A stretch of 63,857 nt of DNA. Origin: an uncultured Telmatospirillum sp. (lineage in GTDB: Bacteria > Pseudomonadota > Alphaproteobacteria > Rhodospirillales > Magnetospirillaceae). Below are positions 53,153-63,814 of the stretch, piece after piece. Location of the stretch: positions 1 through 63,857 of the forward strand of contig CAIOJO010000064.1 in NCBI GenBank assembly GCA_903858635.1, written 5' to 3'. Below the pieces are notes generated by a model, which saw only the letters and a program-made list of their open reading frames with translations, had not been told where the DNA came from and did no database searches. How positions within the stretch are numbered: the stretch's first letter is position 1; each line of letters begins with the position of its first letter. Position numbers and translations under genes: made by a program.

Positions 53153-53758
53153 TCAGCGGCCTTCGAGAAAATGCCTGACTCGGCCCAGCTGCCGGCCCCA
53201 ATTGAGATAACCCAACCCGCCGTCGCCGCCGCGATCTTCCAGCGGAGGATTGGACGAATCCCCCAGGGAAATGGTGATGGCGTTGTTGTCGCCCTGAACG
53301 TCGAGTTTGAACCCCTTTTCGCCCAGCATCTTGCCCAACCGATCGAGGGCCGGCCGCGTTCCGGCGTCGGCCGGCGACCGGGCGGCCACCAGCAGGCCGG
53401 CCAGACGCTCCAATTCCTCGGCCGGCATTTGCCGCAATCGCGCCTGCAGGCGCGCCTCGTCGAAGCCGGCTGCGGTATCCAGGTCACTGGCCAGCAGGCC
53501 GAGGGCGGCCTGCTTGGCGGCCGCCCGGCGGGCCTCGCCGGCGGTGCCGCGCGACCGCTGGCGCTGACCGATCGGGCCGGTGCCGGCGCGTTCCTGGGCG
53601 GCCTTCCCCGCCACCTTCTTCAGCGCCTTTCGGCCCACTGCGGTGGGGCGCGGCTTGGCGCCGGCCGCCCGGCGGATCTTCTGCAGCAGGAAGCCGACAC
53701 CGCCGTTGTCGCAATGGCGGCGAACCGCCTGGTCGATGCCCGATGCCTTGTCGTCCAT
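53153..53758 (-). CDS. Hypothetical protein
   Basis: The 201-residue protein is basic and Ala/Arg-rich in its first half (KIRRAAGAKPRPTAVGRKAL), with helical segments around LDTAAGFDEARLQARLRQMP. It ends with a short beta-like part (KLDVQGDNNAITISLGDSSN). I do not recognise a family. ATG 53756-53758 is chosen for GGGGAG about 9 bases upstream; the open frame continues to 53878. It is divergent from the next gene by 83 bp. Confidence 0.55.
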   Translation of the reverse strand: MDDKASGIDQAVRRHCDNGGVGFLLQKIRRAAGAKPRPTAVGRKALKKVAGKAAQERAGTGPIGQRQRSRGTAGEARRAAAKQAALGLLASDLDTAAGFDEARLQARLRQMPAEELERLAGLLVAARSPADAGTRPALDRLGKMLGEKGFKLDVQGDNNAITISLGDSSNPPLEDRGGDGGLGYLNWGRQLGRVRHFLEGR

Positions 53759-53841
53759 GCGGCCCAGCTCCCCGGCAGGATTTGATTGCCATATTCTCTC
53801 TTTTGGATACATTTCGTCAACTGGCAGCAAAGGAGAGGGCG

Positions 53842-54216
53842 ATGTCCGCGAGCATGACCGGTTCCGCCATCGACGCAATGCGCGTCCTGACCGGGCAGAT
53901 CGACCAGGTGGTACAGGGGCTGGTCGACGCCCATGGCTTCGGCTTGGCTGAAATGAAGGCGATGGCAGGCCTGGCGCAGGCGGAATTCCTTAGTTCGGCA
54001 GCTGAACCGAGGCGGCGATGGGGCTTGACCATGACCCAAGCGGTCGACGGAAGCCTCAAGGTGACGCTCCGCCGACCGGTGAGCGCAGCGGCCATTTGCC
54101 TCGACATCCTGGTCGGCGACGAAGGGATCGCCGGCCTGGCCGAAGCGGTCGCCCTGGCCCTGTCCTTCGTTGCCGTTTCGGAACAGCTCGGCGCCTGTTC
54201 CGTCAAGCCTTGCTAG
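53842..54216 (+). CDS. Hypothetical protein
   Basis: The 124-residue protein has no recognised domain. It is helical (QVVQGLVDAHGFGLAEMKAM) with a beta-like middle (WGLTMTQAVDGSLKVTLR). The ATG at 53842 is well supported by AAGGAGAGGGCG. The last 14 bp overlap the convergent EamA gene, so the two cannot share full-length transcripts without antisense pairing. Confidence 0.6.
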   Translation: MSASMTGSAIDAMRVLTGQIDQVVQGLVDAHGFGLAEMKAMAGLAQAEFLSSAAEPRRRWGLTMTQAVDGSLKVTLRRPVSAAAICLDILVGDEGIAGLAEAVALALSFVAVSEQLGACSVKPC

Positions 54217-57742: not shown

Positions 57743-58135
57743 TCAGCGCCCGCAGCTGCCCCCCAGCCGGGACGCCGCTGGGGCCGATCCGGCCCGCGCC
57801 CCGCCGCCACAGAGGCCGCGCATGGTCCGGCGGAAATTCGGGGTATCGGCGATGACCCGCAACCAACATCTCTCCCGGTCCCGGGCCTGCGCGGCCAGCG
57901 CTTGGCGAACCTGCAGAATCAGATTGGCCGCTTCCTTGATGTCGTATTCCTCGGTCAGACAATGATGGGCGAAGGACAGCTTTTCGACGGCCATAGGCAC
58001 ATCGACCACCGGCGCCGTAATGATGCTCGTATAAATTGCGTCCAGGGCTTGTTCCGTCTCGGTGGGGCCGCCCTGCTCACCGTTATGGTAGAGAGCCTTG
58101 CGCTTGAGACGTTTATACTGCTCTGTCAGTGACAT
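57743..58135 (-). CDS. Hypothetical protein in the T4SS module
   Basis: The 130-residue protein begins MSLTEQYKRLKRKALYHNGE, has a helical middle (AANLILQVRQALAAQARDRE) and an Arg/Gly-rich tail. No family is recognised. The ATG at 58133-58135 follows GGGGGAC. The much longer open frame (to 58795) upstream is antisense-like and rejected. It lies between the prepilin peptidase and the MobC-like gene. Confidence 0.55.
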   Translation of the reverse strand: MSLTEQYKRLKRKALYHNGEQGGPTETEQALDAIYTSIITAPVVDVPMAVEKLSFAHHCLTEEYDIKEAANLILQVRQALAAQARDRERCWLRVIADTPNFRRTMRGLCGGGARAGSAPAASRLGGSCGR

Positions 58136-58236
58136 GGACGTCGTCCCCCTGCGTCGATCGAGCCGCGTTGCCCATGGCCCTGTCATGAGTTTCTCTACCA
58201 ATGGTAGCATAGTCGACCATTGCCGCTTGGTGAAAA

Positions 58237-58920
58237 TCATGCGGAAAACAACCCCAGATGGAATAGACCATTGGTCGGGGCGGCGCTCAACCAGGCCATC
58301 GCAGCCACGGCGATAGCGGGGGCGAAGGGCATCGGCTCGTCCTTGCCGCAAAGGCGGCGACCCAGCAGAATCGCCAGGATCGCCACCGACGACAGAAGGA
58401 AGATCACCGCCACCGCCAGTGGCCCGAGCCAGGCCCCGAGCGCCGCCAGCAGTTTGACATCGCCCAAGCCGATCCCTCCGCCCCGTCTGCGGCCGAGAAT
58501 CCCGGCCAGCCAAGGCAGCACACCGCCCATCGTCGCGCCGATCCAGGCCTGAGCAGCCGGGGCCGAATCGGCGAAAGGCGCGGCCAAGCCCAGCCCCAGC
58601 AGGGGTAGAACCACCAGATCGGGCAGGATACGGTGACGCCAATCCAACCAGACGCAGATGAACAGGCTGCCACCGAGAATCGGCAAGGCCGCGGAGGACG
58701 CCATCCCGCGCGCCAGCGCCGTGGCCGCCATCAGCGTGGCCGCGCCCAAGGCCTCGACCCAGGGAAGACGGCGCCGACTTCTCCCGGCCCGGCAAGCCAG
58801 TGCCGCCCGAAACCCATGGTCAAGCAACGGATCGATGCGCGCATCCAGCCAGCAGGCGACGGCGCCACTCAGCCAGCCGACCAGTCCGGCCAGCAACAAG
58901 GTGAAGCTCAGCCCGTGCAT
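58237..58920 (-). CDS. Prepilin peptidase (A24 family)
   Basis: The 227-residue protein has about seven membrane helices and the two A24 aspartate motifs, CVWLDWRHRILPDLVVL and GIGLGDVKLLAALG (GxGxGDxKL). Such enzymes cleave and sometimes methylate type IV pilin-like signal peptides. It lacks the N-terminal cytoplasmic methylase domain with Cys pairs. It overlaps the virD4 end by 13 bp, so it is part of the same operon. Confidence 0.85.
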   Translation of the reverse strand: MHGLSFTLLLAGLVGWLSGAVACWLDARIDPLLDHGFRAALACRAGRSRRRLPWVEALGAATLMAATALARGMASSAALPILGGSLFICVWLDWRHRILPDLVVLPLLGLGLAAPFADSAPAAQAWIGATMGGVLPWLAGILGRRRGGGIGLGDVKLLAALGAWLGPLAVAVIFLLSSVAILAILLGRRLCGKDEPMPFAPAIAVAAMAWLSAAPTNGLFHLGLFSA

Positions 58921-60878
58921 GGCCCCTCGGCATCCTGCTGGGCGGATGGCAGCTCGTCGGGACAAAGCCAGGGCGGCATGGCTGGCGCTGGTGGCGGCCC
59001 GCGTCGTCTCCCCACGTCCCAGGCCCGCCGCCGCAATATGGCGTCCTTGAAGTAGAACGGCGTCTGCACCTTGATCGGCCGATTGGCGTATTTCTGGAAC
59101 AGCAGGATATGCGTTCCGGCCGGCATCGACATGAAGTCGGCCGGATGAATCAGCGGAATGCCAGCCAGGCTCCGGTTGACGCTGACGGCAAATGGATTGG
59201 CCTGTTTGGACCAGCCATGGGTCCGGCTGCGGCTCTCGCCCTCATGGGTGCGATTGCCGACCATCTCGGAAAAGCGCTTGGCCACCGCCTCGTTGTTCAG
59301 CGGCAGGACCACCTTCGCCGCGGTGGTGGACAACAGGGTTTCCAGCCCGGTCTTGCCGTATTTCTCCTCGATCTGGGCGAAATCCTGGCCGATCAGCAGG
59401 TACGATACCTTCTGCCCGCGCCCCACGGCCGGCCCGTCGATGAGAGCCTGCAGTTTGGGCATCTGCGGGAACTCGTCCAGGACGAACAACGCCGGGAAAG
59501 GCCCCAACTTGCCCCCCGCCCCATCGCCGGCACCCGGCGGATGGGCCACCAGATAGGCAGACAGCGCTTCGACGAACAGCCCGGTGATGACCCCCAATGC
59601 CCGGGCGTCCTGCTGGCTGACGCAAAGATAGACCGTCACCGGCCGCGGCCGGCCCGAGCCCGGCTGCGGCATGCCGCGCAGATCGGCAAAACTGAAATCG
59701 GAGGTCTGGGTCCGTTGCCGCACGGCGCCGTTCTTGAAGACCGCCAGGCCGGCGTCCATGGTCGACAGGATCGAGCCGCGCTCGCGATCCGGGGTGTGGG
59801 CCAGCTGGGTCAGTTCGAGCACCGCCCGGTGCGCATAATCATTGGCCCGCGCCTCGTTCACCGCTTCCATCAGAAAATTCTTGATGGGGTCGGCGGTGAA
59901 CGCCGCGTTGGGATCGGTCTGCTTCAGTCGCTCGACCTCGTCGCCGGCCCGCAAGGTGGCTTCGGCGATCCAGTCCAGCAACATCGGGAAGCTTGCCTCG
60001 CGGCCCCACCACGCCTCGGGAAGGCCGCCGAACCGCCGGACTTCGCATTTCGACACGATGAACTGGATAAGGCCGGCCAGGGCGGCACGCCCCCGCTTGC
60101 TCCAATGCGGGTCGGCGCCACCCTGCGGATCCGGCACCAGCACGGCGGCCAGGCGATCGACATAGAGATCCCTTTGCGGACCGGCGCCGGGAATCGACTT
60201 CGGCGACAGCGGGTTCCAGCGCGGATGCACCAGCCCCGCCGTGGGATCGTCGGCGGCCGCCCATTCCAGGCGGAACACCGGCCCGACGCGCTGGCGGTAA
60301 CCGGAGGTCAGATGATGCAGTTCCGGCTTCACGTCGTTGATCACCATCGACGCCCCGTCGCAGGTGAGAATGGTCGGAACCACCACCGACGCGGTCTTGC
60401 CGGTCCCCGGCGGCGCGATGCACAACACCGACAAGGTCTCGGGAAGTTTCAGCAGCTGGCGGCGCCAACGCCCGAGAACGATGATGAAGCCGGCCGCCAG
60501 GCCCATGCGCCGCAAGTCGGCGTCATTCGCCCAGCGGGCCGAGCCATGGATATTGGGCGTCGCCGAATAGGGGTTGAGCCCGAGCCCGGCGCCCAGGACC
60601 ATCACGGCCAGGGCCGGCATGGCGATCAGGGGCAGCGGCAGCTTGCCGAGGGCCAGACTGTTGCCCAGCCACACACGATGCACCTCGAGCCAATAGGCGG
60701 GTTGCGCCGATAGGCTGGAGACATAGCCTTGCACCCAGCCCAGGGTGGCAAGGCTGATGCCACGCTCGGCGAGGTAGGTGAGGGGCAAGGCCAGGGGCAG
60801 GGTGACCACCAGCACCGCCAGGGCAAGGCCGCTCGCGCCGACCCGCCAGCGGATGCTCTTGGCGACCTCGTCTTGCAT
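58908..60878 (-). CDS. virD4: Type IV secretion coupling protein VirD4
   Basis: The 656-residue protein has two N-terminal membrane helices, Walker A APPGTGKTASVVVPTIL, HGSARWAND, Walker B LFVLDEFPQMPKLQAL and a conserved GRGQKVSYLLIGQDFAQIEE. VirD4 recruits substrates (relaxase-DNA or effectors) to the secretion channel. The ATG at 60876-60878 has GGGAGGGCAGG. It is followed by the prepilin peptidase. Confidence 0.92.
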   Translation of the reverse strand: MQDEVAKSIRWRVGASGLALAVLVVTLPLALPLTYLAERGISLATLGWVQGYVSSLSAQPAYWLEVHRVWLGNSLALGKLPLPLIAMPALAVMVLGAGLGLNPYSATPNIHGSARWANDADLRRMGLAAGFIIVLGRWRRQLLKLPETLSVLCIAPPGTGKTASVVVPTILTCDGASMVINDVKPELHHLTSGYRQRVGPVFRLEWAAADDPTAGLVHPRWNPLSPKSIPGAGPQRDLYVDRLAAVLVPDPQGGADPHWSKRGRAALAGLIQFIVSKCEVRRFGGLPEAWWGREASFPMLLDWIAEATLRAGDEVERLKQTDPNAAFTADPIKNFLMEAVNEARANDYAHRAVLELTQLAHTPDRERGSILSTMDAGLAVFKNGAVRQRTQTSDFSFADLRGMPQPGSGRPRPVTVYLCVSQQDARALGVITGLFVEALSAYLVAHPPGAGDGAGGKLGPFPALFVLDEFPQMPKLQALIDGPAVGRGQKVSYLLIGQDFAQIEEKYGKTGLETLLSTTAAKVVLPLNNEAVAKRFSEMVGNRTHEGESRSRTHGWSKQANPFAVSVNRSLAGIPLIHPADFMSMPAGTHILLFQKYANRPIKVQTPFYFKDAILRRRAWDVGRRRGPPPAPAMPPWLCPDELPSAQQDAEGPCTG

Positions 60879-60912
60879 CCTGCCCTCCCTCACGCTTGGC
60901 GCCCGGCGCCGT

Positions 60913-61911
60913 TTACCGGTCAATTCCGCCGATGGCGTCGCTGGCCAGGCGCGGAATGTCGATGGCCGTCACCAGCCGCCGCGTCCCCAGGCGATCGATC
61001 TGGACAATGCGGCCAAAGGCCGAACCGATGATGTCGACCGCCGCCGCCGCATCGATGCCGGGGTTGCTTTGCGCCAGGTTCTGGTAAAAGGCCCGCAGCG
61101 CTGCCTCGGGGCTGCTGGCATGGATGGTCGCCATGAAATTGGTGTGGCCGGTGGTCATCAGGCGGAACACGCCCGGCGCATTGGCGATGCCGATCTCGCC
61201 GCAGATGATGACGTCGGGCGTCATGCGGACCACGGCATCGACGATGCGCATGAAGTCCATGCCGTTCGCCGTCTCCGTTCTGGAGACGACGAGATGGACG
61301 CGATTGGCATGCGGCACCACCACCTCGCGCGCGTCCTCGACGGTGACCACCCGGTGCTCGGCCGACAGATAACCGAGGATGGCGTTGAGGAAGGTGGTCT
61401 TGCCAGTCGAAGTCGCGCCCGAGATGAGCAGCGCTTCGCGATTGGCGACGGCGGCCAGCAGATCCTCAAGGGGCGACTCGTCGTAACGGCGCTGTCCCGG
61501 CCGGTGCGGCGCCGCCGTCAGGGATGTCTTGGCGGCGAGACCGTAGCGGTCGAGGGTGATCCGGCGGCCGGGGTCGAACACCCGCACATTGACCGCCACG
61601 CCCCGGCTGTCGCCCATGGCGTAACGGACCCCCGCCCCGACCACGGCGGTAAAGCGATGGCCTTCGGGCAGGGTGGCGTAGAGGATCGGCATCCGCTGGG
61701 GATGAAAGACCTGACCGCTGACATTGGCGAGTTGATGGCAGAGCCTGAGCAGGTAATCCTCGGTGAGTTCGGAATCGCTCCTGGCCTGCCACGCCCCGCC
61801 AGCCATTTTCACCCAGACTTCGCCGGGCCGATTGAGGGCGACCTCCTCGACCATGGCGTCCTCATAATGGGCCGCCAGACGGCGCAAGGTCGCTTGCAGG
61901 AGGGGATTCAA
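60913..61911 (-). CDS. virB11: Type IV secretion ATPase VirB11
   Basis: The 332-residue hexameric ATPase has Walker A LISGATSTGKTTFLNAIL, the Asp box RVVTVEDAREVVVP, RMTPDVIICGEIG (Walker B) and the His box TGHTNFMATIHASS. It powers secretion with VirD4 and VirB4. The start is a TTG at 61909-61911 overlapping the virB10 stop (TTGA), with GGAG eight bases upstream. Confidence 0.92.
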   Translation of the reverse strand: MNPLLQATLRRLAAHYEDAMVEEVALNRPGEVWVKMAGGAWQARSDSELTEDYLLRLCHQLANVSGQVFHPQRMPILYATLPEGHRFTAVVGAGVRYAMGDSRGVAVNVRVFDPGRRITLDRYGLAAKTSLTAAPHRPGQRRYDESPLEDLLAAVANREALLISGATSTGKTTFLNAILGYLSAEHRVVTVEDAREVVVPHANRVHLVVSRTETANGMDFMRIVDAVVRMTPDVIICGEIGIANAPGVFRLMTTGHTNFMATIHASSPEAALRAFYQNLAQSNPGIDAAAAVDIIGSAFGRIVQIDRLGTRRLVTAIDIPRLASDAIGGIDR

Positions 61912-63452
61912 GGCCGTTCTCCGGTCCCGCTGCGGCCGGCCGGCGGACCGCCGGCAGCCCCGGCCGTGGGATTGGCGTCGCGCAGCTGCTGCAGCAGATC
62001 GGATTGGAGAAGTTGCTGCGCGGTTTGCGGAACCAGTTTCTGCATCTGGGGGTTCTGCGCCACCAGCTGGATCAGGGCGGGAAGCAGTTGGGCCAGGTTC
62101 GCCGGACTGGCCAGCCCGAGCCCGCCGCTTCCCTTGGGAGGGGTCACCGCGCGCAGATGGTTCGGGTCGCGCAGCCAGATATCCTCGGCCGGAATGATGT
62201 TGAGCCGGGTGCCTTGGGCGACCGTCAAGACCGGACGGATGTCGACGTTCTCCTGGACCATGCGCTGCCCCAGCGCATCGAGGTCGTTGCCCAGACGGTT
62301 GGCAGCTTGAGCCTTGCCGCTCAAGCTCTGGGTGGTCCCTCCCAGCGGGCTGACGACGGCGGCGCTGCTGCCATCCAGCACCCACTCGCCACCGGCGGCA
62401 ATGACGCTGGTCAGCAGTGAACTCCCATATTTTTCGAAGAAGCGGCTGTCGAGATCGCCAGGCAGGCCGGTGCGGCCCATGACGTCGGCCCCGGGGCTGT
62501 CGATATTGATGTTGACGCCATCCGGCCGGATGATCCGCCACCAGCTGATGTCGAGGCGCGCCTGCCCGACCTTGGCCAGAGACTGGGTGCGCCCGATCAC
62601 CCGGGACCCGGCCGGGATCAGCACCAACCGCCCATCGGAGCCATAGACCGGGCGTTCCACCACGGCGATGGCCCGGCCGGGCAATTGGCTGTTGATGGTG
62701 TTCTCCAGCACGGCCGGAATGTACCGATCGGCGGTGATGACGCGCGAGCGATCCACCGGAAGGCTGCTGACGATGCCCGGCAGGCCGGCCTCGGTATAAT
62801 TCGGATCATCGGCGCCCAAGGGCGGCAGGGCCTCGTCGTCCTCGACGACCAGGCCGGCATCCTGCCGCGAGCGGGCGAACAGGAGCGATGCCTCGGCATT
62901 GGCCACGGGGGCCGATGGCGACGGGCCGAAGCGATCGGCCTGGCTCGGGCCGGCCTCGCCGCTCAACGAAACGAACAGGCTGCCGCCGCCGCCGACCTGG
63001 TCGACCACCACTTCGCCATCGGCGATGCCTTGGCGGGCCGGACGAAAGGTCACCTCGACCTGGCAGGAGGCGCCCGGAGCGACCTCGACGCCCTTGCCGC
63101 AACTGCCGCCCACCCGGTAGGCGGAAGCCTGCCCGGCCACATGGATGGTCCCCAGGGTGACCGGCAGTTCGCCGGTGTTGGCCAGGTCGATCTGCCGAAC
63201 CGCCTGATCACCGGCAGCCAGCGGCGGGAACGCGATGGCCCCGGTGCTGGCCGTCAGGTGGCCGGGAGCGGGCGGCGGCCGGGGCTTGTCCTGCGCTTTG
63301 CGGATCAGGGTATCGAGCGTGCTTTCGCCCTTGGGGATCGGCAGCTTCCGCTCCGGGCGGGGCGGCGGGTTGTCGTCGCAGCCGCCGACCCCCAGCACCA
63401 GACAGGCGGCCAAAGCCACCGCTCGCACCGGGATGCTCCCCCTGGCCACCAT
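61908..63452 (-). CDS. virB10: VirB10/TrbI-like protein with lipoprotein signal and Ig-like (ASH) domain
   Basis: The 514-residue protein begins with a predicted type II signal: VRAVALAACLVLGVGGC with Cys25 followed by Asp-Asp, which favours inner-membrane retention. Residues about 66-170 form an Ig-like, ASH/choice-of-anchor-D type domain (LANTGELPVTLGTIHV, GSCGKGVEVAPGASCQVEVT). The C-terminal half is the TrbI core (IPAVLENTINSQLPGRAIAV, LIPAGSRVIGRTQS). Normal VirB10 has an N-terminal membrane helix and no such domain. Start ATG 63450-63452. Confidence 0.85.
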   Translation of the reverse strand: MVARGSIPVRAVALAACLVLGVGGCDDNPPPRPERKLPIPKGESTLDTLIRKAQDKPRPPPAPGHLTASTGAIAFPPLAAGDQAVRQIDLANTGELPVTLGTIHVAGQASAYRVGGSCGKGVEVAPGASCQVEVTFRPARQGIADGEVVVDQVGGGGSLFVSLSGEAGPSQADRFGPSPSAPVANAEASLLFARSRQDAGLVVEDDEALPPLGADDPNYTEAGLPGIVSSLPVDRSRVITADRYIPAVLENTINSQLPGRAIAVVERPVYGSDGRLVLIPAGSRVIGRTQSLAKVGQARLDISWWRIIRPDGVNINIDSPGADVMGRTGLPGDLDSRFFEKYGSSLLTSVIAAGGEWVLDGSSAAVVSPLGGTTQSLSGKAQAANRLGNDLDALGQRMVQENVDIRPVLTVAQGTRLNIIPAEDIWLRDPNHLRAVTPPKGSGGLGLASPANLAQLLPALIQLVAQNPQMQKLVPQTAQQLLQSDLLQQLRDANPTAGAAGGPPAGRSGTGERP

Positions 63453-63814
63453 CTGCCGCACCGCCCAATTCTCCGAATTGGCAACGAAACGCGGCAAATG
63501 TATCTGTTTTGGATCGCCGTGTAAACAAGGGCGCCCCGCCCCGGGCCGCGAAGCCCCGCTCAGGCCCGCTGACGCCGCCTTATCAGCCCGAAACCGCTGG
63601 CCAGGCTGTGCAGCAGGGCGATGATCCAGCCCAGCATCGGCGGCAGGACCACGGCCGTTCCCATATCGCTGCGCCAGGCGGCCAGTCGGTGCGCGTAAGC
63701 GGCGTCGAGGCAATCATTGGGGATGTCCCGGTCGATGTTGAAATTGGAGGGCAGGCGTTGCTCACCTTGAGCCTGTAGGCTCGGGGTGTCGAATCCGCAA
63801 AGGAGAGCAACGCC
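63453..63814. other. Uncertain 362-bp region upstream of virB10
   Basis: No complete gene could be assigned. On the - strand a frame ending at 63560 reads like protein (DRDIPNDCLDAAYAHRLAAW, LPPMLGWIIALLHSLASGFG), but its only start is an ATG at 63664 (34 codons); it may be the 3' end of a gene entering from beyond the window. The other strand shows an SD and a start at 63815. A hairpin is noted separately. Confidence 0.35.
63763..63788. repeat. Hairpin/operator-like inverted repeat
   Basis: CACC-TT-GAGCC and GGCTC-GG-GGTG are inverted complements around TGTA, with the two inner bases forming wobble pairs. It lies 26 bp before the start of the partial + strand gene. Confidence 0.4.

Follow-up and report, generated by a model that had tools for sequence, protein, structure and literature searches.

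The VirB10 homologue encoded on the minus strand at 61908..63452 of the window (the whole stretch of 63,857 nucleotides analysed here, which is the entire contig C64 of an uncultured Telmatospirillum sp. whose source genome amounts to 6.13 Mb in 568 contigs) combines a lipoprotein-type signal with an ASH/PapD-like immunoglobulin (Ig) domain and a TrbI domain. The best explanation, towards which we lean, is that of a lipid-anchored VirB10 devoid of a cytoplasmic part, which would belong to a type IV secretion system (T4SS) spread over three loci and accompanied by a type IVb pilus.

Results

Domain architecture of VirB10

The virB10/trbI gene lies near the contig end and encodes 514 residues in an open frame whose position had been given correctly in the first-pass annotation. 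Pfam TrbI (PF03743) matches residues 238-427 (62172..62741, minus strand) along its full profile, 1-188, with an E-value of 1.2e-48 and 165.9 bits against a cut-off of 35, so that the domain is complete. The NCBIfam T4SS_VirB10 equivalog model gives 156 bits, below its cut-off of 220, and the protein is thus a homologue rather than an equivalog by that model. Nine relatives that are 55-65% identical and nearly full length were found among 61 genomes; with the window protein included they make up a family set of ten, five from a single genus (G000-G004) and five from the same family (G020, G024, G028, G031 and G034). Beyond TrbI, an alignment of four relatives delimits a C-terminal extension (residues 428-514; 61911..62171, minus strand) that holds a conserved QNP..Q...PQ.AQQ stretch.

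An Ig-like domain of roughly 100 residues with an SCG...PGASC pattern had been noticed ahead of the TrbI core from the sequence alone, and both profile searches and structure prediction bear it out (residues 62-170; 62943..63269, minus strand). The NCBIfam model choice_anch_D (NF012200) scores 45.6 bits over residues 62-151, narrowly above its cut-off of 45, while the Pfam ASH (PF15780), HYDIN and Cep192 models give weak matches that all fall below cut-off. AlphaFold2, run on the window VirB10 and three relatives, predicts an all-beta domain at residues 61-170 with a block pLDDT of 75-90. The mean pLDDT of the whole model is 47 and the parts outside the ASH domain are poor; as TrbI was modelled poorly from four sequences, the model supports no inference on assembly, and that no VirB10 structure turned up in the fold comparison carries no meaning. 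The SPD-2 domain of CEP192 (7ptb) fits the VirB10 domain with a Z-score of 14.1 and a root-mean-square deviation of 1.7 over 103 residues (VIA-align), and further matches from Foldseek and VIA-align include ciliary proteins, HYDIN and the bacterial protease VesB. These ASH/PapD-like domains share the fold over about 100 residues with Z-scores of 11-14 and, among the best 15 matches, a sequence identity of 12-23%. Unlike in CEP192, HYDIN and VesB, the domain is here fused to a T4SS subunit, and a common fold does not imply a common function. Both Cys of the pattern are kept in all ten full-length relatives.

The N-terminal signal and start codon

The N terminus had been read at first annotation as a lipobox with Cys25 and Asp at +2, and the relatives uphold this reading. 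The window protein begins with a tail of 10 residues, two of them basic, and continues with a hydrophobic stretch that leads to Cys25 and to Asp26 at +2 (signal residues 1-24 plus Cys25; 63378..63452, minus strand). With the window counted, a Cys closes the hydrophobic stretch in 10/10 full-length relatives and Asp stands at +2 in nine, the exception being G028 with Gly at +2 and Asp at +3. Such conservation, together with that of the two Cys in the Ig domain, makes chance unlikely. The tail ahead of the stretch measures 5-10 residues in nine relatives with the starts chosen, and is start-dependent in G002. None of the eight conjugative VirB10s used as controls, four of which come from the window's own genome, has a lipoprotein-type Cys/Asp start; in all eight, a tail 27-44 residues long that bears 8-19 charges precedes a helix, and the first 62 residues contain no Cys. 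These comparisons argue for a lipoprotein-type signal on the window VirB10, with lipidation itself being predicted.

A strict PROSITE-type lipobox pattern matches the window protein and seven of the ten relatives in all; it is missed by those of G001, G004 and G028, each of which has a proline near the Cys. The three misses, along with an ASH-bearing VirB10 in G059 that has a plain helix and no Cys, would suit a hydrophobic segment that persists as an uncleaved helix, VirB10 then being a bitopic protein with a very short cytoplasmic tail and an incidental Cys. We consider this unlikely, given the invariant Cys and the nearly invariant Asp, the very short tails, the cleavable-type signals on sister proteins and the position of the G059 protein outside the clade of 24 proteins described below.

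The concern that the true start might lie upstream and supply a normal membrane helix falls away in 9/10 relatives, where a -35/-10-like element ends 6-45 nt 5' of the chosen start and, with the limited in-frame room, leaves no place for such a start. The closeness of this element argues against a hidden cytoplasmic tail. In G002 the start first taken overlaps the promoter-like element, and a later ATG must therefore be the start.

In E. coli, Asp at +2 causes lipoproteins to be retained in the inner membrane, a rule that may not hold for the present group. On the VirB7-like lipoprotein of the same systems the +2 residue is S, G or N (Asp in 0/9), and on the PilN secretin it is Q, E, R or G (Asp in 0/7, one with Glu). 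VirB10 hence bears a different sorting mark, which suggests that it is sorted differently from these two lipoproteins, and its lipid probably resides in the outer leaflet of the inner membrane. Were the E. coli rule to fail here, VirB10 could be a lipoprotein sorted to the outer membrane, with both of its ends there and no VirB10 link to the inner membrane, an arrangement with which the Gly at +2 in G028 and three sister VirB10s seemingly without an N-terminal membrane anchor would be compatible. The contrast in Asp usage between VirB10 and the VirB7-like protein and secretin, both outer-membrane lipoproteins, speaks against it, and we regard it as quite improbable.

Sister VirB10 proteins

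A search across the order found a match at an E-value of 1e-20 or better in 66 of 317 genomes, with most of the matches listed covering TrbI alone. In a midpoint-rooted FastTree phylogeny of 33 TrbI domains, from which G002 was left out, 24 proteins group together with a support of 0.98, of which nine belong to the window family, seven are further ASH-bearing proteins and eight are short; taken alone, the window's VirB10 family has a support of 0.73. The choice_anch_D model matches the ASH region of eight sisters at an E-value of 0.001 or better, one of them above cut-off, and six of these eight were chosen because their match reached that region, so that the count implies no frequency. Two further sisters scanned with the same model gave no match.

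The sisters from G275, G280 and G268 have, by eye, cleavable-type signals ending in A-x-A, which agrees with a lineage without the membrane span. Lipobox-type starts are found in those of G257 and G060, and short Cys-bearing starts in those of G050 and G094. We rejected a general classification of short-start sisters (e.g., G265, G019 and G016) as lipoproteins, the strict pattern being present only in G257 and G060 among 13. Sibling T4SSs, to which the first-pass annotation had pointed as a comparison, share the departure in one sense only: phylogenetic sisters are atypical too, three of them through cleavable-type signals, whereas the four other VirB10s of the window's genome, G000 (C250, C423, C15 and C134; L007-L010), are of the ordinary conjugative type, with charged tails of 27-42 residues, a helix and no Cys.

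Several further features were observed among the sister systems. The VirB10s at L173, L174 and L175 (G280, G268 and G275, respectively) are about 600 residues long, seemingly lack an N-terminal membrane anchor and show a weak sodium/calcium-exchanger (Calx-beta-like) match ahead of the ASH domain. The virB10 gene of G268 adjoins genes for VirB9, VirB11 and VirD4, with a VirB8 match just below cut-off. VirB10s of 357-372 residues (L158, L161-L167, L024, L028 and L029) have a short FC(D/E)...GxC start, with Cys about 14 residues apart and no basic tail. Directly behind virB10 in five sister systems lies a gene for a protein of 718-789 residues with a signal-like start (L042:6411-8567, L043:3090-5336, L174:9545-11902, L175:5772-8141 and L177:5565-7826), which precedes virB11 wherever virB11 was seen; the copies at L042 and L174 match no Pfam family, and no such gene was seen in the window's locus.

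Three chromosomal loci

Three chromosomal loci, here called A, B and C, together carry the T4SS genes. Locus A consists of virB10, virB11 and virD4, and is without virB2-B9. In the window, the virB11 ATPase (60913..61911, minus strand; Pfam T2SSE, E 6.9e-28) and the virD4 coupling ATPase (58908..60923, minus strand; Pfam T4SS-DNA_transf, E 4.4e-60) have intact Walker A motifs, GATSTGKT and APPGTGKT, and are followed by a PilU-like type IV prepilin peptidase gene (58237..58965, minus strand; Pfam Peptidase_A24, E 2.5e-17) and a frame (57743..58795, minus strand) with a small protein of about 100 residues and no fixed start, which is conserved by blastp and lies behind virD4 in relatives. A relative of this small protein, L036:4134-4436, has no Pfam family above cut-off. 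Locus A lies near genes for PhoU, an ABC ATPase and cytochrome c in G004, with the same neighbours detected by blast in G001, G003 and G020, and this common neighbourhood points to an inherited chromosomal locus. In other genomes, blast finds relatives of two further window frames, of about 220 and 140 residues (53153-53878, minus strand, and 53743-54216, plus strand), near locus A; the latter frame has no Pfam family, and the two could possibly be accessory or substrate genes of the T4SS.

VirB4 and VirB8 families are found away from locus A with no neighbouring VirB10. Locus B, examined in nine genomes and in some of them in pieces, carries virB2-5, virB7-9 and type IVb pilus genes of IncI type. 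In proteins of G031 and G000, Pfam matches above cut-off identify VirB2, VirB4, VirB8, VirB9, TcpQ/PilL, the secretin PilN, PilO, a PilQ-type ATPase, PilR and PilS; matches to VirB3, VirB5 and PilM fall below cut-off, and the VirB7-like lipoprotein, a PilP-like protein and two more proteins have no Pfam family above it. A scan of the G001 copy shows that the gene divergent from virB2 encodes a helix-turn-helix (HTH) regulator with an S24 match below cut-off. Locus C, with a virB1-like gene and virB6, was examined in eight genomes, with Pfam scans covering G031, a small protein of G024 and one neighbour in G004. A VirB6 gene is present in 8/8 and a second in five (G000, G024, G028, G031 and G034), and blast detects the VirB1-like transglycosylase gene in seven. 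Genes for an IscX-like protein and a beta-CASP metallo-beta-lactamase were also seen by blast near the locus C VirB6 gene in six of the eight genomes (L141:14238-16356).

With VirB4, VirB6, VirB8 and VirB9 (G031) and VirB10, VirB11 and VirD4 (window) above Pfam cut-off, and family matches in G000, a complete VirB/VirD4-type T4SS is present. A type IVb pilus gene set of IncI type is likewise present, its secretin, PAP_PilO and T2SSE (G031), T2SSF and PilS (G000) and Peptidase_A24 (window) all being above cut-off. Pfam scans of the genes within the loci examined gave no match to relaxase families. Genome-wide, PF03432 occurs in 7/10 genomes and PF03389 in 5/10, with neither in G002 or G020, and the single relaxase match on a contig bearing one of the loci (G004:C64) is about 47 kb from locus C.

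A promoter element shared by the loci

The promoter-like element of virB10 (63498..63525, minus strand), which has a palindromic core between its -35/-10-like boxes, is degenerate in the window, and relatives have it at loci B and C as well. Nine locus A promoters, the window site among them, were used to train a matrix, which finds a site upstream of locus B virB2 in 9/9 genomes and upstream of the locus C VirB6 gene in 8/8; the virB2 site is the best of its locus in eight genomes, the best one in G034 being in the same gap on the side facing the regulator. The locus B and C sites score 20.9-36.9, whereas neither the four conjugative T4SS loci in the window's genome nor two distant systems exceed 12.0. 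In twenty shuffles of about 80 kb that preserved single-base composition only, the best score was at most 17.2 in 19 and 23.8 in one, and the virB2-side sites of G001 (23.5) and G034 (20.9), though rightly placed, can thus be reached by one shuffle. A window site at 53792 with a score of 12.2 is at noise level and is not claimed. As a pattern with up to three mismatches, the element occurs genome-wide at 31 distinct sites in nine genomes, of which 20 lie at or near the loci, including one at a stray VirB2-like gene in G020, and 11 lie elsewhere; a control pattern has one genome-wide match. The only two perfect pattern matches, G000:C97 and G001:C16, both lie outside the loci, and eight outside or stray places that were inspected have no gene in common except the VirB2-like one. 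The HTH regulator divergent from virB2 (L106:13506-14132) is a candidate binder of the palindrome.

Association of the loci

Window-type VirB10 occurs in 10 of the 61 genomes and locus-B-type VirB4 (at least 62% identity) in nine, all within those ten. G020, the exception, carries locus A together with a VirB6 gene; it lacks a VirB8 match and a locus-B-type VirB4, its only VirB4 family match being weak, and has a VirB2-like gene (by eye) behind the promoter element. The window has its prepilin peptidase gene in locus A, whereas G001 (Pfam) and G004 (blast) have theirs in locus B, the locus A gene lists of these two showing no peptidase gene on inspection. Co-occurrence, the shared palindromic element and the peptidase gene in A or B link the loci, and this association by sequence indicates that A, B and C would form one T4SS. 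An orphan virB10-virB11-virD4 islet is ruled out by the VirB4, VirB8 and VirB6 genes without an adjacent VirB10 in the same genomes. Locus A might still be a leftover or a separate small system, with B and C belonging elsewhere, as large distances separate the loci (about 200 kb between A and C on one G024 contig) and most of B is missing from G020, which retains A and a VirB6 gene. In view of the three links between the loci, the intact Walker A motifs in VirB11 and VirD4 and the sequence identity that VirB10 has retained over nearly its full length, we hold this to be very improbable.

Discussion

The system described here displays features of several known secretion machineries. As in the minimized T4SSs (A. 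tumefaciens VirB10, R388 TrwE and pKM101 TraF), the TrbI domain is complete, virB10 lies by virB11 and virD4, and VirB7-, VirB8- and VirB9-type partners are encoded in the genome. However, by sequence a lipoprotein-type start takes the place of the cytoplasmic tail and helix, an ASH domain is added before TrbI and a C-terminal extension follows it. In IncI-type conjugation a type IVb pilus, encoded by the pil genes of R64, goes with the T4SS, and the PilN secretin, PilO, PilQ ATPase, PilR, PilS and prepilin peptidase beside a T4SS are R64-like; the present system differs in its VirB-type core (TrbI, CagX and VirB8) and its three chromosomal loci. The rvh T4SS of Rickettsiales has vir genes scattered over the chromosome in islets and more than one VirB6, which is paralleled here by dispersed chromosomal vir genes and a second VirB6, whereas the type IVb pilus, the shared promoter element and the lipoprotein-type ASH-VirB10 are additions relative to rvh.

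We propose the following model of how this VirB10 might be arranged. The protein would be exported, cut before Cys25 and lipidated there, with Asp at +2 most likely confining the lipid to the periplasmic leaflet of the inner membrane. This would place the proline-rich linker and the ASH domain in the periplasm, close to that membrane, while the TrbI domain would form the outer-membrane channel with VirB7 and VirB9. VirB10 would still join both membranes, from the periplasmic face and without a transmembrane helix or cytoplasmic tail, and coupling to VirD4, VirB4 and VirB11 would have to pass via periplasmic partners. The ASH domain may be the docking piece and is the best candidate for replacing the lost contact.

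In other systems the N-terminal region of VirB10 is reported to contact VirD4 (PMC6536674), and VirB10 spans the inner membrane (PMC12857230). If the VirB10 described here is lipidated and retained, both the contact and the span would be missing, the cytoplasmic contact being lost once the signal is processed. From a lipid anchor the first-pass annotation had expected a differently built core complex. This would apply to the inner-membrane end only, since the outer-membrane TrbI part is complete and VirB4, VirB7-like, VirB8, VirB9 and VirB6 partners are present at the two other loci. Titles and abstract openings retrieved in a literature search, whose coverage leaves out most subscription journals, describe no lipoprotein or Ig-bearing VirB10.

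On a broader reading, which we regard as evenly balanced, the inner-membrane span of VirB10 was lost in this T4SS lineage of Rhodospirillales, which takes in the window's system and its relatives within the order, and coupling takes a periplasmic route. The loss would have taken the form of a lipid anchor in the window family, a cleavable signal in G275, G268 and G280, and short Cys-ended starts in others, and the candidate routes are the ASH domain, the protein of 718-789 residues or the base of the type IVb pilus. If this is true, VirB10 in these systems could neither reach VirD4 nor sense ATP use via a helix, and a natural span-less VirB10 with the other parts kept would tell whether secretion itself requires the span or whether only one mode of its control does.
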